From a virus, in IMG/VR virus record IMGVR_UViG_3300004369_000559, positions 1 to 43,014 of that record: DNA of 43,014 nt, one strand, 5' to 3'. The notes beneath the pieces were generated by a model. It ran no database searches. It was not told where the DNA came from and saw only the letters and a list, made by a program, of their open reading frames with translations. This document shows positions 8,410-40,501 of the stretch, in pieces (positions within the stretch are counted from its first letter, which is position 1; each line of letters begins with the position of its first letter). A program made the position numbers and the translations under genes.

Positions 8410-9933
8410 ATGGCAGAATTTTTTGGATTTAAGATTACACGAGATAAACCTAAATCTGACCCAAAACAAAACTTTAGTACCCCTCAAGCCGAAGACGGCA
8501 CACAAGTTGTCGCCGCTGGTGGGTATTTTGCGTCTCACCTCGATATGGAGGGAAACGCAAAGACTGAAGCAGATCTAATAAGAAGATACAGAGAAATTTC
8601 ACTACATCCAGAATGTGACATGGCTATTGAAGATATTATCAATGAGGCAATAGTTGCAAACGAAAACAAACAACCGGTTAGATTAGTAACCGATTCTGTT
8701 CCTTACAGTAAAAATATAAGATTTAGAATAGAAGAAGAATTTACAGAAATATTAAGATTATTACAATTCAATACTAGAGGTCACGATATTTTTAGACGTT
8801 GGTACATTGATGGTAGAATTTATTTTCAAAAAATAATAGATACTGAAACAGGCAAATTAGGTATTACTGAACTTAAATATTTAGACCCTCGAAAAATTAA
8901 AAAAATCAGAGAAGTAAGAAAAAGAAGGCCTGACGGGGTTGCTCCATCAGTTACAAATTTGGTAGACGAAGTTCAGGAATACTTTTTATTTAATGAAAGA
9001 GGTGTAGGTGGTGCTAGTTTACAAGGTATTAAAATTGCAGTAGACACTATCGCATTTTGTCCATCAGGTTTAATAGACCAAAACAAAAATATGGTGTTGT
9101 CTTATTTACATAAGGCGATTAAACCTGTTAATCAATTAAGAATGATTGAAGACGCTGCTGTTATTTACAGAATAGCTAGAGCGCCTGAAAGAAGAATATT
9201 TAAAATTGATGTTGGTAATTTGCCTAAAATGAAAGCTGAACAATATTTGAGAGACGTTATGGCAAGATATAGAAACAAACTTGTTTATGACGCACAAACA
9301 GGTGAAATCAGAGATGATAGAAATTACATGTCAATGTTAGAAGACTTTTGGTTACCAAGTAGAGAAGGTGGCAGAGGTACAGATATTACAACTTTACCAG
9401 GTGGTCAAAATCTAGGAGAAATTACAGACATAGAATACTTTAGAGCAAAACTTTATAGATCGTTGAATGTTCCTTCAAGTAGATTAGAAGCTTCTACAGG
9501 TTTTAACTTAGGAAGATCAACCGAAATAACAAGAGACGAATTAAAATTTACTAAATTTGTTCAAAGATTAAGAAAAAAATTTACTGAACTATTTAATGAT
9601 ATTTTAAAAACACAATTGGTGATAAAAGGAATTATTGCTGAAGAAGAATGGTCAATGATTAGAGATAATATTTTTTATGATTTTTTACAAGACGGTCACT
9701 TTGCAGAATTAAAACAGTCTGAAATCTTAAAAGATAGAATAACACTGGCTAACGATGTAAGAGACTATGTTGGTAAGTACTTTTCGGTTGAGTATGTCAG
9801 AAAAAATATATTAAAACAATCTGATAAAGACATAGAAGAAATTAATAAACAAATTAAAAAAGAAATTGACGATGGAATCATATCATCACCTGGCAACCAG
9901 GTTGTTGATAGTGAGGACTCGATCAATCAATAA
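8410..9933 (+). CDS. gp20: Portal vertex protein gp20
   Basis: This is the dodecameric portal that nucleates prohead assembly and is the channel for packaging by gp17. It has 507 residues (T4: 524). Recognised T4-like portal segments include C-D-M-A-I-E-D-I-I-N-E-A (about 62-73), Y-L-D-P-R-K-I-K-K-I-R (about 157-167), Y-R-I-A-R-A-P-E-R-R-I-F-K-I-D-V-G-N-L-P and the S-S-R-L-E-A-S-T-G-F-N-L-G-R loop near residue 356. The ATG follows TAGGAG by 8 nt. It begins the head operon that runs to gp23. Confidence 0.95.
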   Translation: MAEFFGFKITRDKPKSDPKQNFSTPQAEDGTQVVAAGGYFASHLDMEGNAKTEADLIRRYREISLHPECDMAIEDIINEAIVANENKQPVRLVTDSVPYSKNIRFRIEEEFTEILRLLQFNTRGHDIFRRWYIDGRIYFQKIIDTETGKLGITELKYLDPRKIKKIREVRKRRPDGVAPSVTNLVDEVQEYFLFNERGVGGASLQGIKIAVDTIAFCPSGLIDQNKNMVLSYLHKAIKPVNQLRMIEDAAVIYRIARAPERRIFKIDVGNLPKMKAEQYLRDVMARYRNKLVYDAQTGEIRDDRNYMSMLEDFWLPSREGGRGTDITTLPGGQNLGEITDIEYFRAKLYRSLNVPSSRLEASTGFNLGRSTEITRDELKFTKFVQRLRKKFTELFNDILKTQLVIKGIIAEEEWSMIRDNIFYDFLQDGHFAELKQSEILKDRITLANDVRDYVGKYFSVEYVRKNILKQSDKDIEEINKQIKKEIDDGIISSPGNQVVDSEDSINQ

Positions 9934-22438: not shown

Positions 22439-23818
22439 ATGACAGCAGTAGCAAAAGAAGATTTTGATATACATGCCAAGCAAGATTTAGAAGGCGTTGA
22501 GAGGAAGTGGAAAAAGTTCCAAGAAGAAAACGATATTGAGGCTATTGAACAAGTAGACGAGAGAGTACTTAAAGAAGCTATTCAAAAAGATTTAGGATAC
22601 GTGTCAAAGATGACTGTACAAGAGTATACCCTATTTCAAAAGTGGCAAGAAGTACATAGAAAATTCCCTACAACCGAATCAACTACATTGTATGGTACTG
22701 AAAAAATACTAACATCACCTGAACAAAGAACTCAAATAGATACAGTTAGAAACAATATCTGGATTCCCGAATCACCTGAAGACTATGAAAAATTAGAACC
22801 GATATTAGAATTTACAGATGATAGATTAAGTCAAAATCTAGGTGCATTAGATATTATAGATGAAACTAATACCATCAAAGGCAAAGCAGTAAGAACATCC
22901 AAACTATCAGAGAACTGGAATACATTAAGAACTTTCTTATCTACCATGAAAAACAATAGTAATATTGGTAGACAATTATTCTTTAATGTAAATGATAATA
23001 GATCAGGTAAACATTTAGGTGTCATTTGTATATCTGGTGACTTCATGGATTTAACACCTAGAGACAGTGCTATTGGTTGGGACAGACAGAGTAAAACATT
23101 TGGTGGCATGATTAATCATACAGCAATTGGTTCTTCTATTGTACCTACACAACCATTAGGTTACAGTTATACAGGTGGTAAACTATTAGCATATCTATGT
23201 TTATCAGATGAGGTACAGAAATTATGGCATGACAAGTATGGCGACAAGTTAGTAGGAGTTACTACAACATCTTTATATGGTAAGGCGAAAGCAAACACTT
23301 TAAGTCAATATGATGGATTAAAATATTGGAAACGCATGGGTTTCACTATGGGTTCTGTTTCATATGAACCACAAACAGCAACTAAAAAATTAATTAAACA
23401 ATGGTTAAAGAAAAACCATACTAGAAAATACTTTGAATGGTATGAAGCAACCAGAGCCAACGGCCAACCATTAAAAAGAGATCATAAGAATAGATCATAT
23501 ATGTTTACTTATTCTAAAATGGGCATAGAAAAATCTTTAATCAAAACAGACCATGCCAGAGGTATCTATTTTGCAAGACTATTTGAAAACACTTATGAAT
23601 ATTTAAGAGGTGAAGTAAAAGATGATGGTCTTATTAAACGATTCGATTCTTCTACAGAGGCATTAGTCAAAGTATGGAAACAAAAACATGCTTCAAATAG
23701 AATTAAAAACCTATTAGCAACTAATAGGTTCTCCAAAGAATCACACTTCTATGATGATTTGATATACTTGGATTGGGAAGAAACAAAGAAAAAATACCTT
23801 TTTCAAGTCGGCCGGTAA
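22439..23818 (+). CDS. GNAT-like protein, DruA/DUF4338-resembling (paralogue of 39404-40501)
   Basis: The 459 residues have no confident family match by eye. The central block (about 195-300) reads L-G-V-I-C-I-S-G-D-F, R-D-S-A-I-G-W-D (from R208), I-V-P-T-Q-P-L-G-Y-S-Y-T-G-G-K-L-L-A-Y (V235 on), K-Y-G...T-T-S-L-Y-G (T275 on), and Y-W-K-R-M-G-F. The order strand, basic/Gly loop, helix, strand, and aromatic-x-x-x-G-F end is that of a GNAT acyltransferase. The R-D-x-x-I-G-W and ...K-Y-G... spacing recalls DUF4338 (DruA of the Druantia defence system). The N-terminal 130 and C-terminal 150 residues are charged helices. A second copy of the block lies at 39404-40501. Substrate unknown. Confidence 0.5.
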   Translation: MTAVAKEDFDIHAKQDLEGVERKWKKFQEENDIEAIEQVDERVLKEAIQKDLGYVSKMTVQEYTLFQKWQEVHRKFPTTESTTLYGTEKILTSPEQRTQIDTVRNNIWIPESPEDYEKLEPILEFTDDRLSQNLGALDIIDETNTIKGKAVRTSKLSENWNTLRTFLSTMKNNSNIGRQLFFNVNDNRSGKHLGVICISGDFMDLTPRDSAIGWDRQSKTFGGMINHTAIGSSIVPTQPLGYSYTGGKLLAYLCLSDEVQKLWHDKYGDKLVGVTTTSLYGKAKANTLSQYDGLKYWKRMGFTMGSVSYEPQTATKKLIKQWLKKNHTRKYFEWYEATRANGQPLKRDHKNRSYMFTYSKMGIEKSLIKTDHARGIYFARLFENTYEYLRGEVKDDGLIKRFDSSTEALVKVWKQKHASNRIKNLLATNRFSKESHFYDDLIYLDWEETKKKYLFQVGR

Positions 23819-28033: not shown

Positions 28034-28091
28034 AACGTAGAACGCCGTAAAGGGTTCTATACAAATTAACTTGCTTAACAAAGGAGATAAT

Positions 28092-28544
28092 ATGACAAAT
28101 CATAAAGCAATTTCAATCTTTAATCAATTAAGACCAGTAACAGTTGGATTCGATAATGTATTCGACCACTTTGAAAGATTAATTGATAATGACTTTAGAG
28201 GACTTTCTGTCCCTAATTTCCCACCATACAATATCGTAAAGACAGGTAAAAATACCTATGATGTTGAACTAGCATTAGCTGGTTATTCTAAAAAAGATAT
28301 TGATGTATCTTTAGAGGAAGGTGTACTATCTATTAAATCAGTAAAATCTGAGAAAGAAAAAGAAGTAGAAGACAATAATGGTGTATTACACCAAGGTATT
28401 GCTAAAAGATACTTCTCTAAATCTTTCACTATTGCTGAAGACGTAGAAGTTAAAGGTGCCGAATTAAAAGACGGCCTTTTAAAAGTGTCTATGGAAAGAA
28501 TTGTTCCAGAACACAAAAAACCAAGAACAATTAATATTAAGTAA
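28092..28544 (+). CDS. hsp20: Small heat-shock protein Hsp20
   Basis: An ATP-independent holdase chaperone of the IbpA/alpha-crystallin family. The ATG at 28092 follows AAGGAG by 5 nt; the frame extends upstream to a TTG at 28071, which would put the Shine-Dalgarno inside the gene, so 28092 is chosen (150 residues). The alpha-crystallin domain spans about 44-138, with P-P-Y-N-I-V, Y-D-V-E-L-A-L-A-G-Y-S-K-K-D-I-D-V, G-V-L-S-I-K, a G-I-A-K-R-Y-F-S-K-S-F segment and L-K-D-G-L-L-K-V-S. Many marine T4-like phages carry one, usually late and possibly aiding virion assembly. A bidirectional terminator follows. Confidence 0.93.
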   Translation: MTNHKAISIFNQLRPVTVGFDNVFDHFERLIDNDFRGLSVPNFPPYNIVKTGKNTYDVELALAGYSKKDIDVSLEEGVLSIKSVKSEKEKEVEDNNGVLHQGIAKRYFSKSFTIAEDVEVKGAELKDGLLKVSMERIVPEHKKPRTINIK

Positions 28545-28554
28545 TTAATATCCT

Positions 28555-28582
28555 AAAGAGGTCGATTCAATTCGGCCTCTTT
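28555..28582. terminator. Bidirectional terminator between hsp20 and the minus-strand gene
   Basis: AAAGAGGTCG (28555-28564) pairs with CGGCCTCTTT (28573-28582), 10 bp with one wobble and an 8-nt loop. The A-rich and T-rich ends give short U tails on both strands. It lies exactly between two convergent genes. Confidence 0.82.
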
Positions 28583-29968
28583 CTAAGCCTTTGATAAAAA
28601 AGTTCGCAAAAGTTCGCCAGTAGTAATAAAATTTCTATAATTTCCACCTACATACCTAGAATTTACGGAAAGCAATTCATCATCACCTACTTTATATTTT
28701 ATTTGTTTAGTTATACCTAATCCTCCACCAGTTCTAACTTCAGCTGTCATTCTTTTATTTTGTAAAGTTTTACCCATACTTTCTAAGTTTTTCATAAAAT
28801 ATGTTTTAAGTCCTGAACCTATATCCACAGTGCTTAATGTTTTAGCTTCGTTAGCAGTAAAAGCTATAAAAAATGTTATGCCTTGTACTATACCTTTTAA
28901 GTTTGCCTTTGATAACTGCTTATAAACTATTTCGTATATTTGTCCTTGTATTTTTCCATCATTAATCTTTGGTTTTAATTTACTAGCAAGATTGTCTATT
29001 TTTTTCATATCTGCATTAGTTAATTTTACTCCAAAATGATTAGTTAATCGACCAAATGCTTCTCCAGTAATACCTGTAACTTGGCCTACTTGCGTAACGT
29101 GATTTATTTTCACAGATAATTTTAAAAAAAATTTTGTTTGTTTACCTGTTCCAGGTTTACCCTCATATCCTTCATAATATGTGGTTCCTATATCTGCTTT
29201 GGTTTCTCCTTGTCCCATTACACCTAACGAAACTATATCAATTCTATCTTTGCGGCCATTTGCAAAAAAATATTCGGAGTGTTTTTGTACATTACCACTA
29301 TTTGCAAACGCAGCAGCATCGTTAAAATAAGTTTGTAGGTCTGATGGTACAGATGTTCCTGATAACTTGCTTTTCAGCCAGTTAAAAGCTCCATCATTCA
29401 GTGCGTAATAAACAAAAACATGATCTTCTATCCTTGGATTTTTATTTTTACCTACGTATTCAAATGCTTTATTTACAGTTAATGATTTTACAGGTGGTTT
29501 ACCTACTATGTAACCCTCAATAGTTTTATTTGTTGGTTTATTAAAATAATCTTTTAGTTTAGCAATAATATCTGTAATAGTTACAGCACCATCTCTTTTT
29601 GCTGTAAACTTAGCAACTATTGCGGCCTGCACTATTGCTTCTGCTAGGTAACCAAAAGGAACCTTTTCACCATTTTTCATAACATTACCTACATGAGGAG
29701 TAAAATCAATACGTTCACTTACTTCAATTGGTATTTTTTTTAATCCATCTTTATAAGTTATTAAATTTAATTTTTGTTTAGACATAGATTCTAACGATTT
29801 AATTGCTTTAGAATTTGTGGGTGAAGGTTTTTTTAACGTATATATATTAGCATCACCGGTAGCACCTTTGATTAAAGTTATTTGAGTTCCTTTTAATTGA
29901 GATAAAGCATGGGATATGTGTCCTTGTAAACTAGATATACTGGTGGTATTAATAATTGAATTTGCCAT
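28583..29968 (-). CDS. Unrecognised 461-residue protein, possible PD-(D/E)XK nuclease
   Basis: The only minus-strand gene in the window. By eye it matches no named family, but the spacing of key residues suggests a restriction-endonuclease fold: F-G-Y-L-A-E-A-I-V (E about 109), then T-K-A-D-I-G (D about 259), then F-L-K-L-S-V-K-I-N (K about 287) followed by Q-V-G-Q-V. The x-S-V-K strand and a following Q-x-G are common in PD-(D/E)XK enzymes. The N-terminal 90 residues are basic and Ser/Thr-rich. It diverges from the Mom-like gene across 79 nt and converges with hsp20. The start ATG has no Shine-Dalgarno and lies 1-2 nt from the predicted +1. Structural or other roles cannot be excluded. Confidence 0.55.
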   Translation of the reverse strand: MANSIINTTSISSLQGHISHALSQLKGTQITLIKGATGDANIYTLKKPSPTNSKAIKSLESMSKQKLNLITYKDGLKKIPIEVSERIDFTPHVGNVMKNGEKVPFGYLAEAIVQAAIVAKFTAKRDGAVTITDIIAKLKDYFNKPTNKTIEGYIVGKPPVKSLTVNKAFEYVGKNKNPRIEDHVFVYYALNDGAFNWLKSKLSGTSVPSDLQTYFNDAAAFANSGNVQKHSEYFFANGRKDRIDIVSLGVMGQGETKADIGTTYYEGYEGKPGTGKQTKFFLKLSVKINHVTQVGQVTGITGEAFGRLTNHFGVKLTNADMKKIDNLASKLKPKINDGKIQGQIYEIVYKQLSKANLKGIVQGITFFIAFTANEAKTLSTVDIGSGLKTYFMKNLESMGKTLQNKRMTAEVRTGGGLGITKQIKYKVGDDELLSVNSRYVGGNYRNFITTGELLRTFLSKA

Positions 29969-29974
29969 ATACTA

Positions 29975-30003
29975 TATTTATCACATATATATTTTTATTG
30001 TAA
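29975..30003 (-). promoter_or_regulatory. Promoter for the minus-strand gene
   Basis: Read on the minus strand, GATAAATA (29982-29975) resembles the late octamer with one mismatch and puts +1 at 29969. The same sequence can also be read as TTACAA-N17-TAAATA with TGA before the -10, giving +1 at 29968. Either way the transcript is leaderless or nearly so; whether it is early or late cannot be settled here. Confidence 0.5.
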
Positions 30004-30005
30004 GC

Positions 30006-30034
30006 TTGACTGTTTAGATTATATGTGATATAGT
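30006..30034 (+). promoter_or_regulatory. Early sigma70-type promoter for the Mom-like gene
   Basis: -35 TTGACT (30006-30011), exactly 17 nt, TGA extension and -10 TATAGT (30029-30034). The predicted +1, near 30041, gives a 7-nt leader with no Shine-Dalgarno. Confidence 0.82.
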
Positions 30035-30047
30035 ACATACAGACAAT

Positions 30048-30860
30048 ATGAAAATTAATTATATAATTAAAGAAATTACAAGATTTGAAGCCACAGAATT
30101 TGTGCAAAAATTTCACTATTCTCCTGTAATGCCTTCTATTACTAAACATTTTTTAGGATTTTTTGTTGATAATAACATCAAAGGTGTAATGACTTTAGGC
30201 TGGGGTACTCAACCTAGACAAACAATAAACAAACTATTTCCTGGATTAGAATCAAAAGATTATTATGAGATAGGCAAAATGTGTATGGATGAAGATATGC
30301 CTAAAAACTCAGAAAGTCAAATGGTATCTTCTGCTATAAAGTGGTTAAAAAAAACTCATCCTAGTGTTTCTTTTCTTTACACAATGGCCGATGGCATAAT
30401 GGGTAAATGTGGATATGTTTATCAAGCTTCTAACTTTTATTTCGGAGAGAAATACTGGACAGACGTTTACTTAATGGAAAACGGCGAGAAATTACATCCA
30501 AGAAGCGCTAAATCTTTATTAGTAGAAAACGCCAATTTTTCAGGTAAGAAAAAATTATTTTGGTTTACCACAGATTATATGAAACACAAAGGCATTAAAA
30601 AGATAAAAGGTTATATGTTTAGATACATCTATCCATTAAATGATAAGGCTAAAAAATTGATGAAAACAGGTTCTACTTTACAATGGTCTTTAAACTATCC
30701 TAAAGATTCAACTCTGGAGTGGCTAGATGCCACTGATTCTAAAAACAAAATTAAAATAAAACAACCAAATTTTACCTTTGAAAAGGCAAAATACAACACA
30801 AAAAACATAGATAAACACAATAAAAACAAATTTACAGGAACACTTGATAAATTCTTGTAG
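30048..30860 (+). CDS. Mom-like GNAT protein, candidate DNA base-modification enzyme
   Basis: 270 residues. The pattern F-H-Y-S-P-V-M-P (about 22-29), L-G-F-F-V-D-x-x-I-K-G-V-M-T-L-G-W-G-T-Q-P (about 36-56), a central E-I-G-K-M-C-M-D, S-E-S-Q-M-V-S-S-A-I-K-W-L-K-K, then A-D-G-I-M-G-K-C-G-Y-V-Y-Q-A-S-N-F (about 119-135) follows phage Mu Mom and its relatives (H-Y-S...; ...G-x-x-Y-Q-A-x-N-W). Mom is a GNAT-fold enzyme that converts adenine in DNA to a carbamoylmethyl form and protects against host restriction. The early promoter fits a protective enzyme made before replication. The C-terminal 90 residues are Lys-rich and specific to this protein. The family call is by eye; activity is inferred. 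Confidence 0.65.
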   Translation: MKINYIIKEITRFEATEFVQKFHYSPVMPSITKHFLGFFVDNNIKGVMTLGWGTQPRQTINKLFPGLESKDYYEIGKMCMDEDMPKNSESQMVSSAIKWLKKTHPSVSFLYTMADGIMGKCGYVYQASNFYFGEKYWTDVYLMENGEKLHPRSAKSLLVENANFSGKKKLFWFTTDYMKHKGIKKIKGYMFRYIYPLNDKAKKLMKTGSTLQWSLNYPKDSTLEWLDATDSKNKIKIKQPNFTFEKAKYNTKNIDKHNKNKFTGTLDKFL

Positions 30861-30902
30861 ATGTATTATAGTAAAATAAAAAAATATATGGTCAAAGGAG
30901 CA

Positions 30903-30938: not shown

Positions 30939-31012
30939 GCGGATGTCGTATAAAAGTAATATGATAGGTTTCCAACCTGTAGAAGATTGGGCAGTACAAT
31001 CCATCCGCTCCA
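30939..31012 (+). tRNA. Degenerate tRNA-Gly (UCC), CCA encoded
   Basis: Acceptor GCGGATG (30939-30945) pairs with CATCCGC (31002-31008); discriminator T and an encoded CCA follow (31010-31012). The D stem is GTAT/ATAT with loop AAAAGTA, lacking the conserved GG. Anticodon stem ATAGG/CCTGT holds loop TTTCCAA, anticodon TCC (30971-30973). The variable loop is 4 nt. The T stem GATTG/CAATC closes loop GGCAGTA in place of the usual TTCRANY. All stems pair (three G-U or T-G), so it is not random decay, but the D-loop/T-loop tertiary contacts would be altered. It could be a specialised or decaying glycine tRNA reading GGA. Confidence 0.6.
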
Positions 31013-33710: not shown

Positions 33711-34162
33711 ATGAAGAAATAAATTGGTCGCAAGACTTGATGTTGGAGGTAACCTTAAATAAACCAGACGATTTTTTAAAAGTTAGAGAGACACTTACGA
33801 GAATTGGTATTTCAAGTAGAAAAGAAAAAATACTTTTCCAGTCTTGTCATATACTACATAAACAAGGCAAGTATTACATAGTACATTTTAAAGAGTTATT
33901 TGCTTTAGATGGTAAAAAAGCAACTCTTAATAATAATGATATACAACGAAGAAATACGATTTCTAATTTACTACAAGATTGGAAATTAATAGATATTGTT
34001 AATAAAGAATTAACCATAACAAATAAAGCGCCATTATCACAAATTAAAGTATTACCGTTTAAAGAAAAAAAAGATTGGATTTTATCCGCTAAATATAATA
34101 TAGGTAAAAAATTAGTTAAAGAAGAAAGCACTGATACTGATAATGCAAATACCGAAATTTAA
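33707..34162 (+). CDS. regA: Translational repressor RegA
   Basis: RegA binds initiation regions of early mRNAs, including those of replication genes, and blocks their translation. The core is nearly identical in pattern to T4 RegA: L-N-K-P-D-D-F-L-K-V-R-E-T-L-T-R-I-G-I, L-F-Q-S-C-H-I-L-H-K-Q-G-K-Y-Y-I-V-H-F-K-E-L-F and R-R-N-T-I-S-N-L-L-Q-D-W. It has 151 residues (T4: 122); the extra length is a basic/acidic C-terminal tail. It overlaps gp62 by 4 nt and the RimK-like gene by 20 nt. Confidence 0.94.
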   Translation: MNEEINWSQDLMLEVTLNKPDDFLKVRETLTRIGISSRKEKILFQSCHILHKQGKYYIVHFKELFALDGKKATLNNNDIQRRNTISNLLQDWKLIDIVNKELTITNKAPLSQIKVLPFKEKKDWILSAKYNIGKKLVKEESTDTDNANTEI

Positions 34163-35651
34163 AGATTTTATTATTGAACAAAATACAGAACGTAAGGATA
34201 ATCCAATTACGGTTGCGATTATTACGAAATCAAATCCTAATATCAAAAAACAAAAAGCTGGCGAAACACCTAAAAAAGAACGTACTATTTCTTTTATAGA
34301 AAACGCTTGTGAAAAACGAGGTTTTAAATGTGTTATCATCAATACAAAACACGCTATCATCACAGGTAAAGATGAAGAAAAAAATACACTTACAGTTTAT
34401 AACTTTGACGGTAAAGATAGCGAACACACCTTTGTAGGTAAAGATACTGTTTGTATTACACGAGCAGGTTCAATAGAAGACGAAGCTGGTCTATCATTAA
34501 TATCAGCATTTCAAAACTCATCAGCGTTTATGTTAAACACAAGGTCGGCTATGTTGACTTGTGATAACAAATTAACAACAGCGTTACTATTTGAAAAGTT
34601 TGGTATACCTACACCAAAAACTGCCTTTGTTTCTAATGAAAAAAACTTAGATGACGCATTAAAATTAGTCGGTGGTAAGTTTCCAGTTATATTAAAAACA
34701 CTAACAGGTACACAAGGTATTGGAGTTGTAAAAGTAGAAAGTTATGAAAACCTTGTATCTACTGTACAAGCATTATGGAATCACGATGCCGAAGTATTAT
34801 TACAAGAGTTTATGGAAGTACCTTTTGATATAAGAACTTTTGTAGTAGATAATAAGATATTTGCTTCCACAAAAAGAATACACTCTAAAGAAGATTTTAG
34901 ATCCAATATTCATAGAGGTGGTACAGCAGAACCATATAAGTTAAATGAAGAAGAAATGGAAATTATTTTAAAAGCAAGTAGAGTTTCAAAGGCATATCTT
35001 GTAGGGGTTGACCATATTGTTTATAAAGGTAAACCTTACGTATTAGAAGTAAATGGTAGTCCAGGTACAGGTGCTAATTATATGTCATATACATATGAAG
35101 ATTATTATTCAGATGCACAAGCTTCTAAATCAATTACAGGCGAAAAATTAGTAGATAATTTAATTAAATGGGTTTCAAAAAGAAGTCATTGGGATAGACA
35201 GGCCGCTAGTGAATGTGGTTGGTTAGAAACTGTAGAATTAAATGACATAGGAAAAGTCAGAGCAAAATTTGACACAGGTAATGGTACAAAAGCTTGTGCT
35301 TTACACGCAGATGAAATTTTAGAAGACAGTAAATCAACAATTAAATGGAAATATAATGGTAAAACTTTTTCTAAACCAAGACACGGCACAAGTGAAGTGT
35401 ATAGAGCAAATGCTGATGGTGAAGAACCTTCTGAAACAAGACCTACAGTATTATTAGATTTAACATTTAACGGATTTACATATAAAGATATAGAAGTAGG
35501 TTTAGACGCAAGACCAAGATCAGGCTCAGACTTATTAATTAATAGAGATTTAATGCGACAGATGAATGTAAGTGTTAACCCTAACAGAACATTTGTATTA
35601 AGTAAAAAGTTAAAACCGGTTGATAAACAAGAAGAACAAGAACAAGAATAA
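34143..35651 (+). CDS. RimK-type ATP-grasp ligase fused to an aspartic-protease-like domain
   Basis: 502 residues with two parts. Residues about 1-350 form a RimK-like ATP-grasp enzyme: N-K-L-T-T-A-L-L-F-E-K-F-G-I-P-T-P-K-T, P-V-I-L-K-T-L-T-G-T-Q-G-I-G-V, L-L-Q-E-F-M-E-V-P-F-D-I-R-T-F-V-V and L-E-V-N-G-S-P-G (metal and ATP site). Residues about 365-485 match the small protease usually encoded beside RimK (ATP-dependent zinc protease family, retropepsin-like), with F-D-T-G-N-G (D377), A-L-H-A-D, and G-L-D-A-R-P-R-S-G-S-D-L-L-I-N-R. RimK adds glutamates to ribosomal protein S6; the phage substrate is unknown. The fusion is clear in a single frame. Confidence 0.85.
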   Translation: MQIPKFKDFIIEQNTERKDNPITVAIITKSNPNIKKQKAGETPKKERTISFIENACEKRGFKCVIINTKHAIITGKDEEKNTLTVYNFDGKDSEHTFVGKDTVCITRAGSIEDEAGLSLISAFQNSSAFMLNTRSAMLTCDNKLTTALLFEKFGIPTPKTAFVSNEKNLDDALKLVGGKFPVILKTLTGTQGIGVVKVESYENLVSTVQALWNHDAEVLLQEFMEVPFDIRTFVVDNKIFASTKRIHSKEDFRSNIHRGGTAEPYKLNEEEMEIILKASRVSKAYLVGVDHIVYKGKPYVLEVNGSPGTGANYMSYTYEDYYSDAQASKSITGEKLVDNLIKWVSKRSHWDRQAASECGWLETVELNDIGKVRAKFDTGNGTKACALHADEILEDSKSTIKWKYNGKTFSKPRHGTSEVYRANADGEEPSETRPTVLLDLTFNGFTYKDIEVGLDARPRSGSDLLINRDLMRQMNVSVNPNRTFVLSKKLKPVDKQEEQEQE

Positions 35652-36384: not shown

Positions 36385-38874
36385 GTGAATTTCTATAAGT
36401 CAGTAATTGAATTTAAAGGCAAACTTCTTGTAAGAGGCATACACGAAGACCAAGAATATAAAGAAAAAATAGATTTTAGTCCTACTCTTTATTCATTAAC
36501 ACAACAACAAACAGAATTTAAAACCTTACAAGGCCAATTTCTTAAACCCATTACATTTAAAACTATTGATGATGCTCGTAGATTTAGACGAGATGTAGCA
36601 ACAGAAAACTCACCAATTTACGGTTTAGAAAGATACAACTATCAATATATTAATAAACAACATCCTGAAAATATACAGTGGGATAAAAAACTTATAAAAA
36701 TATTTACATTAGATATAGAAACTTCTTGCGAAAATGGTTTTCCAGACGTAGAAAATCCTATTGAAGAACTGCTTTGTATTACAGTTAAAAATCAATCCAA
36801 TAAACAAATCATTACTTGGGGTATTGGCGACTATAAAACAGACAGGCCAGATGTTACTTATGTTAAGTGTAAAGACGAAAAACAATTACTGTTTGAGTTT
36901 ATGAATTTCTGGATGAAAAACTATCCTGATATTATTACAGGCTGGAATACTAAATTCTTTGACTTACCTTACTTAATGAATAGAATTATATTGATTGCAG
37001 GTGATAAGGTTGCAAACAAAATATCGCCTTGGGGATTATTTCAAAGAGAAACAATTTTGGCAAGAGGCAGACCTAAAACAGTTTATGATATAAAAGGTAT
37101 TACAAATTTAGATTACTTAGACCTATATCAATGGTTTATTCCTACTCGACAAGAAAGTTACAAACTTGATTTTATCGGCGAATTAGAACTTGGCCGTGGT
37201 AAAGATGAAATGCCTTATGATACATTTAAAGAATGGTATACAAAAGATTTTCAATCATTTATTGATTACAATATACAAGATGTTGAAATCGTTGACGCAT
37301 TAGAAGATAAACTTGGCCTCATTGATTTATCATTAACTGTTGCCTATGAATCTAAAGTAAATTATGGTGACATCTTTTCACAAGTGCGAGTATGGGACAC
37401 ACTGATTGCAAATCATCTATTAAAGAAAAACATTTGTATACCACCAAGAGAAGATAATATAAAGAATGAAAAGTATGAAGGCGCTTATGTAAAAGAACCA
37501 CAACTTGGTATGCACAAGTGGATTGTTTCGTTTGACATTAACTCTCTATATCCGCATATCATTATACAATATAATATATCGCCAGAAAAAATTATAGGTG
37601 AAAAACCATCTGGTATTTCTGTAAATAAAATGTTAAATCAATCTACACCTCTTGCATATCTTAAAACAGATGGCGCTTGTATTACGCCTAATGGTGCATT
37701 GTTTAAAACAGACAGTCAAGGTTTTTTACCTGAAATGATGGAAACAATGTATAACGAGCGTGTAGTTTTTAAAGATAGAATGTTGAAAGCAAAGAAAGAA
37801 TATGAACGAACTAAAAATCCTGAATTAATAAAAGAAATATCTCGTTGTCACAATATTCAATGGGCAAGAAAGATTGCTTTAAACTCAGCTTATGGTGCAG
37901 TTGGTAATCAATACTTTAGATACTATGATGTAAGACAGGCCAGTGCCATTACTACAGCAGGCCAGTTTATCATTCGTTTTATAGAAGAAAAGGTAAATGG
38001 TTATCTTAATAACATATTAAAGACACACGACAAGATAGATTATATTGTGGCTTCAGATACAGATTCAATTTATGTTACGCTTGATAAACTTGTAGAACAT
38101 ACTTGTAAGGGTAAAACAGATGACCAGATATGTAACTTTATAGACAAAGTAGTAAACAGTAGAATAGAACCATTTTTAAATAAATGTTTTGAAGAACTTG
38201 CAGATTATACAAACGCATTTAAAAATTGTATGGTAATGAAACGAGAAGTAATCGCCAACAAAGGTATATGGGTTGCAAAGAAAAGATATATGTTAAATGT
38301 ATTAGATGAAGAAGGCGTAAGACTTTCTGAAACTAAACTAAAGATTATGGGTATCGAAGCCGTTAAATCATCAACACCTAAAGTATGTAGAGGTAGAATT
38401 AAAAAGGCCATAGAAATAATAATGAATAAAGATGAAGATACATTACAAAAGTTTATTGCTAATTTCAAAAAAGAGTTTTTTAATATGTCGGCAGAAGAAA
38501 TATCTTTTCCTAGGTCTTGCAATAACATAAAGAAATATAAAGACAGTAATAATATCTTTTCCAAAGGCACACCAATACACGTAAAAGGCGCTTTAATATA
38601 TAATTATCATGTTAAACAATTTAAACTATCAAACAAATATCCTTTTATACAAGAGGGTGATAAGATTAAATTTCTTAAATTGTTAGAAGCTAACCCATTT
38701 AGATTTGATGTAATTAGTTATATTACCACTCTACCTAAAGAGTTTAAATTACAACAGTACATAGATTATGAAACACAATTTGAAAAGACATTTTTAGACC
38801 CTATGAGATTTGTTTTACAGGCCATTGGTTGGCAGCAAGAGAAACAAGCAAATCTGGAGTTATTCTTTCAATGA
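36385..38874 (+). CDS. gp43: Family B DNA polymerase gp43
   Basis: This is the replicative polymerase with 3'-5' exonuclease. It has 829 residues (T4: 898) from a GTG start. Exonuclease motifs are D-I-E-T (110-113), G-W-N-T-K-F-F-D and Y-N-I-Q-D (295-299). Polymerase motifs are S-F-D-I-N-S-L-Y-P (D384), K-I-A-L-N-S-A-Y-G (496-504) and S-D-T-D-S (D558, D560). The C-terminal end (L-E-L-F-F-Q) is the probable clamp-binding peptide, matching the T4-type Leu-Phe ending. The N-terminal region is shortened relative to T4. Its stop overlaps the methyltransferase ATG. Confidence 0.97.
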   Translation: MNFYKSVIEFKGKLLVRGIHEDQEYKEKIDFSPTLYSLTQQQTEFKTLQGQFLKPITFKTIDDARRFRRDVATENSPIYGLERYNYQYINKQHPENIQWDKKLIKIFTLDIETSCENGFPDVENPIEELLCITVKNQSNKQIITWGIGDYKTDRPDVTYVKCKDEKQLLFEFMNFWMKNYPDIITGWNTKFFDLPYLMNRIILIAGDKVANKISPWGLFQRETILARGRPKTVYDIKGITNLDYLDLYQWFIPTRQESYKLDFIGELELGRGKDEMPYDTFKEWYTKDFQSFIDYNIQDVEIVDALEDKLGLIDLSLTVAYESKVNYGDIFSQVRVWDTLIANHLLKKNICIPPREDNIKNEKYEGAYVKEPQLGMHKWIVSFDINSLYPHIIIQYNISPEKIIGEKPSGISVNKMLNQSTPLAYLKTDGACITPNGALFKTDSQGFLPEMMETMYNERVVFKDRMLKAKKEYERTKNPELIKEISRCHNIQWARKIALNSAYGAVGNQYFRYYDVRQASAITTAGQFIIRFIEEKVNGYLNNILKTHDKIDYIVASDTDSIYVTLDKLVEHTCKGKTDDQICNFIDKVVNSRIEPFLNKCFEELADYTNAFKNCMVMKREVIANKGIWVAKKRYMLNVLDEEGVRLSETKLKIMGIEAVKSSTPKVCRGRIKKAIEIIMNKDEDTLQKFIANFKKEFFNMSAEEISFPRSCNNIKKYKDSNNIFSKGTPIHVKGALIYNYHVKQFKLSNKYPFIQEGDKIKFLKLLEANPFRFDVISYITTLPKEFKLQQYIDYETQFEKTFLDPMRFVLQAIGWQQEKQANLELFFQ

Positions 38875-39407
38875 TTGATTTTCCAAATAAAAAATATAAA
38901 GTAATTTATGCCGACCCACCTTGGTATTTTAAATCATATAGTAAAAAAGGTGAAGGAAGAAATGCTACACAACACTATGATTGTATGAATATAGAAGATA
39001 TAAAAAAATTACCTGTAAATAATATTGCTGAAGACAACTCAACTTTATTAATGTGGGTTACCGACCCCTTTTTAGAATTATCTTTTGATGTTATAAAATC
39101 TTGGGGATTTAAATATAAAACGGTTGCATTTACTTGGGTGAAAACAAATAAAAAAAGTCCTGGATATTTTAAAGGTTTAGGTTATTGGACTAGAGCCAAT
39201 CCAGAAATGTGTTTGTTAGCAACTAAAGGTAAACCAAAAAGAATATCTAATGGCGTGAACCAATTAGTAGTATCTAAACTAAGAGAGCATTCAAAAAAAC
39301 CCGATGAAGTATATAATAGTATTGAAACTTTATTAGAGGGGCCATATATAGAATTATTTGCTCGTAATAGAAAAGAAAATTGGGATTGTTGGGGTAATGA
39401 GACATGA
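38871..39407 (+). CDS. MT-A70-family adenine methyltransferase
   Basis: 178 residues from the ATG at 38871, which overlaps the gp43 stop (ATGA); a longer frame from a TTG at 38829 lies inside gp43. The catalytic motif D-P-P-W (15-18) is preceded by Y-K-V-I-Y-A and followed by M-W-V-T-D-P-F-L, F-T-W-V-K, a W-T-R-A-N-P-E-M-C-L-L-A-T-K-G-K-P motif and E-L-F-A-R. These define the MT-A70/IME4-like family, which methylates N6 of adenine. In phages it is usually a DNA methyltransferase. Its stop overlaps the downstream GNAT-like gene, so the two are probably made together. Confidence 0.9.
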   Translation: MIDFPNKKYKVIYADPPWYFKSYSKKGEGRNATQHYDCMNIEDIKKLPVNNIAEDNSTLLMWVTDPFLELSFDVIKSWGFKYKTVAFTWVKTNKKSPGYFKGLGYWTRANPEMCLLATKGKPKRISNGVNQLVVSKLREHSKKPDEVYNSIETLLEGPYIELFARNRKENWDCWGNET

Positions 39408-40501
39408 AAACATTAACCAAAGAACAAGCATTATACTGTGCTAATATATTCAATAACTACTTTAAAAAATTTAGTCGTATAGATGAATATATGAAAGATC
39501 AAAAGTTATCTCAAATAGAAAATGTGCCATCGGCTTTGCCTGGTATGGGTCTACAGAATACTATATTTTCAAAATTTGATATGTCACCTAAAGACATGGA
39601 CTTTGAACTGTTAGAACCAGATAATAATACATATGATACGTTATTAAATATGATTTCTTCTCATACTAATATGTCAAGTGTACCCGGTAAAAATTTAAAG
39701 ATTGCAGTAAGAGAAAAGAATAGTGGTCAATGGGTAGGTTTTATAAGATGTGGTTCTCCTGTTATAAACATGAAACCAAGAAACAATTTATTAACTCATG
39801 TACCAGAATTAGTAAGTTTCAATAAGACTTCTATTATGGGATTTGTTATAGTACCAACTCAACCTTTTGGTTTTAATTACCTAGGTGGTAAACTATTAGC
39901 AGCTATATGTTGTAGTCACACTATAAGAGAAAAATTAAATTCAAAATATGGTATGAACTTATCATTATTTGAAACTACAAGTTTATATGGTAATAGTAAA
40001 TCATCAAGTCAATATGATGGCATGAAGCCTTATTTAAGATACAAAGGTTTAACTGATAGTGATTTTATACCTTTAATGCATGGTAAACCTTTTTATGATC
40101 TTGCAACATTTGTTGAAAATAATGTAGGTAAACTTATTAAAGATAATGCCTCCAGCAGAAAATTAAAGCTAACTACGGCAATTATAGGTTTAATTAAAAA
40201 AAATTTAAACAAAAGTGATTTAGAAGAATTTAATACAACTATAAGTAATGCAAAGAAACTAACTGAAAGAAAAAGATACTATGTTAGTGACTATGGTATT
40301 AAGAACTATCTAGATATAGTAAAAGATAACACTAAAGAAATAATCAAAGGTGAGAATTGGGATAAATTTGAACTAAATAATATCATACAATGGTGGAAAA
40401 AGAAAGCAGAATCAAGATATAATAAACTAAAAGAAGATGGTAGATTAAGGAATGATTTAGAAATCTGGACACCAGAGGCAGAAATAGACATTATAAGATG
40501 A
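39404..40501 (+). CDS. GNAT-like protein, paralogue of 22439-23818
   Basis: 365 residues. It repeats the core of the 459-residue protein: I-V-P-T-Q-P-F-G-F-N-Y-L-G-G-K-L-L-A-A-I-C (V150 on), then S-K-Y-G-M-N-L...T-T-S-L-Y-G-N-S-K (T191 on), S-Q-Y-D-G-M-K and L-R-Y-K-G-L-T. The distance from V-P-T-Q-P to T-T-S-L-Y-G is 41 residues here and 40 there. The R-D-x-x-I-G-W-D motif of the longer paralogue is not kept. A GNAT-type acyl-CoA fold and a DruA/DUF4338 relation are inferred. It overlaps the MT-A70 gene by 4 nt and the next small gene by 4 nt. Confidence 0.5.
   Translation: MKTLTKEQALYCANIFNNYFKKFSRIDEYMKDQKLSQIENVPSALPGMGLQNTIFSKFDMSPKDMDFELLEPDNNTYDTLLNMISSHTNMSSVPGKNLKIAVREKNSGQWVGFIRCGSPVINMKPRNNLLTHVPELVSFNKTSIMGFVIVPTQPFGFNYLGGKLLAAICCSHTIREKLNSKYGMNLSLFETTSLYGNSKSSSQYDGMKPYLRYKGLTDSDFIPLMHGKPFYDLATFVENNVGKLIKDNASSRKLKLTTAIIGLIKKNLNKSDLEEFNTTISNAKKLTERKRYYVSDYGIKNYLDIVKDNTKEIIKGENWDKFELNNIIQWWKKKAESRYNKLKEDGRLRNDLEIWTPEAEIDIIR

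Follow-up and report, generated by a model that had tools for sequence, protein, structure and literature searches.

A Mom-family gene and a divergent gene for a predicted PD-(D/E)XK-like nuclease as a movable pair in marine T4-like phages

The window analysed here, i.e. the whole stretch of DNA under study, is a 43-kb virus record (IMG/VR IMGVR_UViG_3300004369_000559, positions 1 to 43,014). Among named phages, its closest relative is Mosig, a T4-like Pelagibacter phage of the Kyanoviridae, and this likeness suggests a SAR11-type host. At the locus described below, a gene for a protein of 461 aa and a gene for a Mom-family protein of 270 aa diverge across 79 nt. Both ORFs and their spacing were found as a sequence-only reading of the window had described them, and the former gene is the single minus-strand gene as far as substantial genes are concerned; the remaining minus-strand ORFs are nested in plus-strand genes. 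The features of the locus are:

28547..30898, no strand assigned: movable cassette (hairpin, nuclease gene, promoters, Mom gene and about 40 nt), a segment missing at the same place in Mosig
28555..28582, no strand assigned: 11-bp hairpin at the convergent ends of the hsp20 and nuclease genes, possible bidirectional terminator
28583..29968, minus strand: 461-aa PHROG_3560 protein, predicted PD-(D/E)XK-like nuclease, key residues E110, K257/D259, S285/K287 and Q293/Q296
29975..29982, minus strand: putative T4-type late promoter box of the nuclease gene, GATAAATA, 6 nt 5′ of its ATG
30006..30034, plus strand: predicted sigma-70-type promoter of Mom, TTGACT-N17-TATAGT, with TTGAC and the TGATA downstream of it unchanged in all five distinct copies
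30018..30046, minus strand: sigma-70-like site of the nuclease gene, TTGTCT-N17-TATAAT, present in some copies only
30048..30860, plus strand: predicted 270-aa Mom-family DNA modification enzyme with matches to PF25680 and PHROG_1384

Further features were observed in the surroundings. Between the cassette and gp45, a tRNA that was missed by ARAGORN was found at 30939-31009 (Rfam RF00005, 39.6 bits), and a homologous RNA lies at the same place in Mosig. Directly 5′ of the phage hsp20 gene, a weak match to ROSE-type heat-shock RNA thermometers was seen at 28036-28097 (26.7 bits; curated cut-off 43). Two window genes, at 22439-23818 and 39404-40501, are similar to DruA, a component of Druantia defence (PF14236 with E 1.5e-16 and 5e-7; PADLOC DruA1). 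One of them adjoins an adenine methyltransferase-like gene at 38829, and a DruA-like gene is also found after Mom in loci L105-L109.

The 270-aa protein matches Pfam PF25680 with an E value of 7.9e-56 (189 bits versus a curated cut-off of 27.1) and PHROG_1384, annotated as 'Mom-like', with an E value of 2.9e-41. By these profiles the assignment to the Mom family, made earlier from the letters alone, is certain. The dN/dS of Mom is about 0.05, corresponding to purifying selection. In one carrier of the pair (L018 1954-2769; same contig as L095) the Mom ORF is broken into 171 + 94 aa and the divergent nuclease gene is intact; this may be either an assembly or sequencing error, or a loss of protection and evidence against strict dependence.

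The 461-aa protein matches phrog_3560 (E 4.8e-18), as do all 43 aligned relatives. PHROG_3560 is a family without assigned function that occurs in cyanophages and pelagiphages. The family alignment comprised 43 sequences, with relatives taken from IMG/VR and identities down to 17-26%. Ten non-initiator positions are invariant in 43/43 sequences (G106, E110, F121, D182, N237, Q253, K257, D259, S285 and K287), Q293, Q296 and G299 are almost invariant, and the motifs follow each other in the order G-x3-E, TKxD, SxK and Q..Q. The AlphaFold model of the protein (pLDDT 88, pTM 0.78) has strands at 241-247, 260-266 and 276-288. E110 sits in helix 105-121, TKxD lies at the start of strand 260-266 and SxK ends strand 276-288. 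The order of strands and other secondary-structure elements in the model agrees with a PD-(D/E)XK core, and the catalytic acid, D and xK residues of such a core are found in the expected order as E110, D259 and S285-x-K287, with a serine at the third acidic position as a variant of (D/E)xK. The invariance of E110, D259 and K287 at 17-26% identity is well beyond chance. These three residues had already been proposed from the sequence; all of them stood, and only the numbering changed, 'E109' being E110 when M is counted as 1. D244/E255-x-K257 was considered as active site and dropped; E110/D259/S285-K287 was favoured because E255 and D244 vary in the alignment.

The search for a PD-(D/E)XK core by AlphaFold, which had been suggested as a check, had a divided outcome: the residue pattern and strand order fit, and a Foldseek comparison of the model with the PDB gave nothing significant. 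Against BFVD, only the protein's own cyanophage relatives were returned. Since Foldseek gives no solved relative, the nuclease fold is a predicted one. PADLOC, NCBIfam, Pfam and PDB sequence searches yielded no name for the protein; the best Pfam matches of the family lie below cut-off (DUF5881 sub-threshold, and a weak PDDEXK_10 match of one relative). Relatives were not found in plasmids or GTDB genomes, and therefore an origin of the gene from a bacterial restriction system is not traceable. The gene is under purifying selection (dN/dS about 0.13-0.16). On the strength of its conserved motif, the 461-aa protein is very probably a PD-(D/E)XK-like nuclease.

The 79-nt gap had been read as carrying a promoter for each gene, which was confirmed with TTGACT-N17-TATAGT for Mom and with GATAAATA as well as TTGTCT-N17-TATAAT for the nuclease gene. 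Judged by its sequence, the promoter that drives Mom is of the host sigma-70 type. On the opposite strand, NATAAATA, which is the late promoter of T4-like cyanophages (PMC2984593), is located 6-7 nt 5′ of the nuclease ATG in 5/5 distinct copies. As in T4-type late genes, which have a TATAAATA-like box just upstream, the window has its box at 6 nt. Within 60 nt of a gene start, NATAAATA occurs in the window only before the genes at 8410, 10950, 11659, 14517, 15178 and 17640 and before the nuclease gene. The first four are portal, protease, core and tail-tube type genes according to their translations and the gene order of Mosig, and from about 18.3 kb onward the nuclease gene is the sole gene with such a box. 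Of the Mosig genes examined, 12 of 34 structural ones and 8 of 57 others have NATAAATA in front of them. Because the box is kept and is otherwise found near the starts of structural genes in the window, the nuclease is most likely expressed late despite the location of its gene among early genes. The sequence-only reading had left the minus-strand promoter as late or else early; the late box is present in all distinct copies and the sigma-70-like site in some of them only, and middle expression via overlapping early and late sites is possible.

The hairpin at 28555-28582 has a folding energy of -16.3 kcal/mol (z -4.5 on the plus strand and -11.5 on the minus strand), and relatives have a hairpin of different sequence at the matching place. 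A terminator scan of the hairpin detected no U-rich tail. The hairpin behind the bidirectional terminator claimed earlier is thus real, with termination as a possible role.

The pair was found in seven contigs (the window, L002, L003, L004, L017, L018 and L090) representing five distinct sequences; L089, L091, L092, L093 and L095 are repeat entries of carrier contigs under other locus names. In all carriers the two genes are divergent across 74-79 nt and located next to gp45; DUF3310 separates Mom from gp45 in every carrier but the window. The opposite flank is hsp20 wherever the contig extends that far, except for L002, which has a different gene there. Mosig lacks the pair at the same hsp20/tRNA-gp45 site and has the order hsp20, small ORF, gp45. 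The homology between the window and Mosig (L007) ends 2 nt past the hsp20 stop codon and picks up again at about 30899, just ahead of the tRNA and gp45. Between the window and L002, dS amounts to 0.41 for the nuclease gene and 0.43 for Mom, compared with 1.31 for gp45 and 1.49 for gp44, and hsp20 of the window is 91% identical to that of Mosig and 63-72% identical to those of the other cassette carriers. Since the site is empty in Mosig, the dS values of the two genes are equal and hsp20 is closest to that of Mosig, the pair was probably inserted as a single piece into a phage backbone like that of Mosig. The empty site and the equal dS values bear out the earlier suggestion of a movable cassette bounded by the hairpin.

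The two halves of the pair differ in their divergence. In comparison to the distant carriers L090 and L017, the nuclease is 53-59% identical and Mom 89-93%. In L094, a Mom gene with 88% identity is found at the same site with its promoter retained, and the 461-aa gene is substituted. On account of these identities and this substitution, the nuclease half is, as far as sequence comparison goes, fast-evolving and replaceable, with Mom staying. Upstream of Mom in L094 (758-3312), genes for a distant 370-aa PHROG_3560/33928 protein and a 460-aa HNH protein are present instead of the 461-aa gene. The HNH protein matches a PADLOC profile of type II REases (E 5e-13), and the L094 replacement nuclease, used as a query, returned no sequence but its own. 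All distinct copies with the 461-aa nuclease (5/5) keep both genes linked.

For a wider view of the genes beside Mom, lineages of Mom were defined at 97% identity (n = 40). In 21 of the 40 lineages, a direct neighbour of Mom belongs to one of four families of nuclease-like genes, a count that is biased upward because the four partner families were picked out by their position beside Mom. In representative loci, 21/21 such nuclease-like genes are adjacent to Mom, whereas 4.9 would be expected at random placement. Where Mom and the nuclease gene have the same direction, they mostly overlap or lie end to end (spacing -14 to +9 nt, and +31 nt in one case). The partner families are PHROG_3560, PDDEXK_11 with a Pfam match above cut-off, a family of 169 aa with EPD...EIK, and a weaker family with KSD...SVK (SxK). 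EPD...EIK is invariant in the 169-aa family, and its AlphaFold model (pLDDT 88.5) has NaeI as best match (prob 1.00, E 1.7e-3), followed by other restriction enzymes (prob 0.93-1.00, E to 3e-2); this family is found without Mom, too. When profiles were compared, the window's family showed no similarity to any of the other three, and the four families were therefore treated as separate. The adjacency pattern on the side of Mom is suggestive of a functional tie. Some PDDEXK_11 neighbours of Mom (L097-L104, L110 and L114) have DCT instead of ECK and have lost the lysine; these proteins are possibly inactive or have a relocated lysine.

Beside the gene identities, nuclease-type residues, promoters, empty site, mosaic divergence and recurrent adjacency of Mom and nuclease genes read from the sequences, we infer catalytic activity, timing, protection by Mom and target DNA as follows. 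With moderate confidence, an early-mark/late-cut pair resembling a restriction-modification system is favoured, in which Mom marks the phage DNA and the late nuclease cuts unmarked host or rival DNA. Mom, expressed from its sigma-70 promoter, would attach a bulky mark to adenines of the phage DNA. The 461-aa nuclease would be produced later from the T4-type late promoter, once the phage DNA has been marked, and would cleave unmarked DNA, be it what remains of the host chromosome or the genome of another phage in the same cell. The pair would pass between marine T4-like phages as one unit, with the nuclease half swapped and Mom kept.

The occurrence of the nuclease elsewhere has to be weighed against this. 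Mom was absent from 20 records with nuclease relatives, whole genomes included, in a search that recovered Mom in 4/4 positive controls; the nuclease is therefore not dependent on Mom everywhere. Relatives without Mom occur in cyanophages, and in marine T4-like phages their neighbours are gp41, UvsX, MazG, DUF6267 and a nucleotidyltransferase-like gene. The question whether both genes always occur together, raised by the sequence-only reading, was thus answered in the negative, with these 20 nuclease records on one side and about half of the Mom lineages lacking a recognised nuclease neighbour on the other. Late boxes precede 11 of 39 nuclease relatives without Mom versus 39 of 321 other genes (p = 0.01). 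Because Mom-less relatives also carry them, late expression would not have evolved for the pair with Mom; it looks like a trait of the family and not an adaptation to Mom. The location among replication genes and beside DUF6267, the late boxes and the 20 Mom-less records all fit a nuclease that processes DNA late in infection, in branch resolution, packaging or recombination, and is functionally unrelated to Mom, the two genes having been brought together by chance and hitch-hiking as one insert. This main alternative is nevertheless unlikely: the 461-aa gene is dispensable because Mosig lacks it and carries its own RuvC, the pair and its promoters are kept in all distinct copies, and other nucleases adjoin Mom where the 461-aa nuclease is missing.

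Two further observations concern the neighbourhoods of the nuclease relatives. In Synechococcus phage ACG-2014f (L005 3896-6132), a gene for a D12-class Dam methyltransferase directly follows the nuclease relative. It was considered as a second modification pair and not taken as general support, as no amino-methyltransferase motif was found among the nearest neighbours elsewhere. Moreover, MKSFxxFLxE-like N-termini, which resemble T4 capsid-targeting sequences, were seen in the window (34143-35651) and in L012, L015, L019-L024 and L025-L036. Several genes of this type beside nuclease relatives also have late boxes, suggesting that they, DUF6267 included, may encode packaged and injected enzymes.

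Mom of phage Mu is an anti-restriction enzyme with no known nuclease of its own. Mom of the window might likewise be a classic anti-restriction protein directed against host enzymes, the nuclease an independent accessory and the site a hotspot for extra genes. Such a role, already supported by Mu, would agree with the Mom lineages without a recognised nuclease neighbour, e.g. the Melnitz phages, and with the other genes that other phages have at the site. We regard it as improbable, since it leaves the adjacency with several nuclease families and the overlapping reading frames unexplained. In addition, just one of >100 SAR11 genomes has been reported with restriction-modification (PMC7029224), a rarity that in a SAR11 host would leave Mom little to counter and makes plain anti-restriction a less likely purpose.

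A type IV-like nuclease recognising foreign modified DNA, with the Mom mark ignored by the nuclease or blocking it, is very improbable, as no modification-reading domain was detected in the 461-aa protein in PHROG and Pfam profile searches. In its favour, the HNH protein beside Mom in L094 has a PHROG_2598 region, and HNH proteins of this kind are sometimes met in modification-dependent restriction. Equally hard to credit is a virion or late structural protein in place of a nuclease, which would fit the late promoter, the capsid-targeting-like N-termini of some relatives' neighbours and the weak match of 1/43 relatives to a tail-protein PHROG, but not the E/D/K pattern invariant in 43/43 relatives, the absence of a capsid-targeting-like start from the protein itself and its patchy distribution.

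The favoured early-mark/late-cut pair has counterparts among known systems. In T-even phages, phage DNA is marked by hydroxymethylcytosine and unmarked DNA is cut by EndoII and EndoIV, which act early. The principle proposed here, with own DNA marked and unmarked DNA cut, is the same, but the chemistry is another, the genes are unrelated and the nuclease has a late-type promoter. With com-mom of phage Mu the locus shares a member of the Mom family (PF25680), but beside Mom of the window no Com-like gene was seen and a nuclease gene adjoins instead. Type II restriction-modification systems are similar in that a modification gene lies beside a PD-(D/E)XK-like gene, that a divergent layout is common and that they are mobile; here, the modification enzyme is a GNAT-type, phage-borne Mom and the nuclease gene has a late promoter. 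Because the partner is Mom and not a DNA methyltransferase, the pair would work like a classical type II system and is not classed as one. Closest in concept are the predicted Mom-REase fusions of jumbo phages, in which momylation was proposed to shield the phage DNA and the nuclease to be aimed at superinfecting or host DNA (PMC7824862). The concept itself is therefore already published. The likeness consists in a Mom-family enzyme coupled with a REase-fold nuclease, here a predicted one. Unlike in the fusions, two separate genes are found on opposite strands with early-type and late-type promoters, the nuclease belongs to PHROG_3560, the phage is a smaller, T4-like marine one and partner exchange is visible between relatives. 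What is new here is the division into two divergent genes with early-type and late-type promoters, a predicted nuclease from PHROG_3560 and nuclease partners that are swapped at one site; in the open-access literature, no paper was found on a split divergent Mom/nuclease pair, a PHROG_3560 nuclease or such partner exchange.

More tentatively, and with the odds somewhat against it, Mom may be a general self-mark in marine T4-like phages, with PHROG_3560, PDDEXK_11, the NaeI-like fold, the SxK family and HNH proteins as exchangeable weapons of a restriction-like kind, aimed at the DNA of rivals or of largely restriction-free hosts. In the divergent version the late promoter would delay the weapon, the transcription programme of the phage replacing a restriction control gene.

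The favoured reading offers a testable reason for the presence of Mom in lytic marine phages of restriction-poor SAR11-type hosts, namely protection from the phage's own nuclease and not from that of the host. It also offers a function for PHROG_3560, together with named residues to mutate. The promoter arrangement suggests that the early/late programme of the phage does the job of the control proteins in bacterial restriction systems. If Mom is indeed a shared mark for exchangeable nucleases, its gene neighbourhood would provide a handle for finding further phage weapons.
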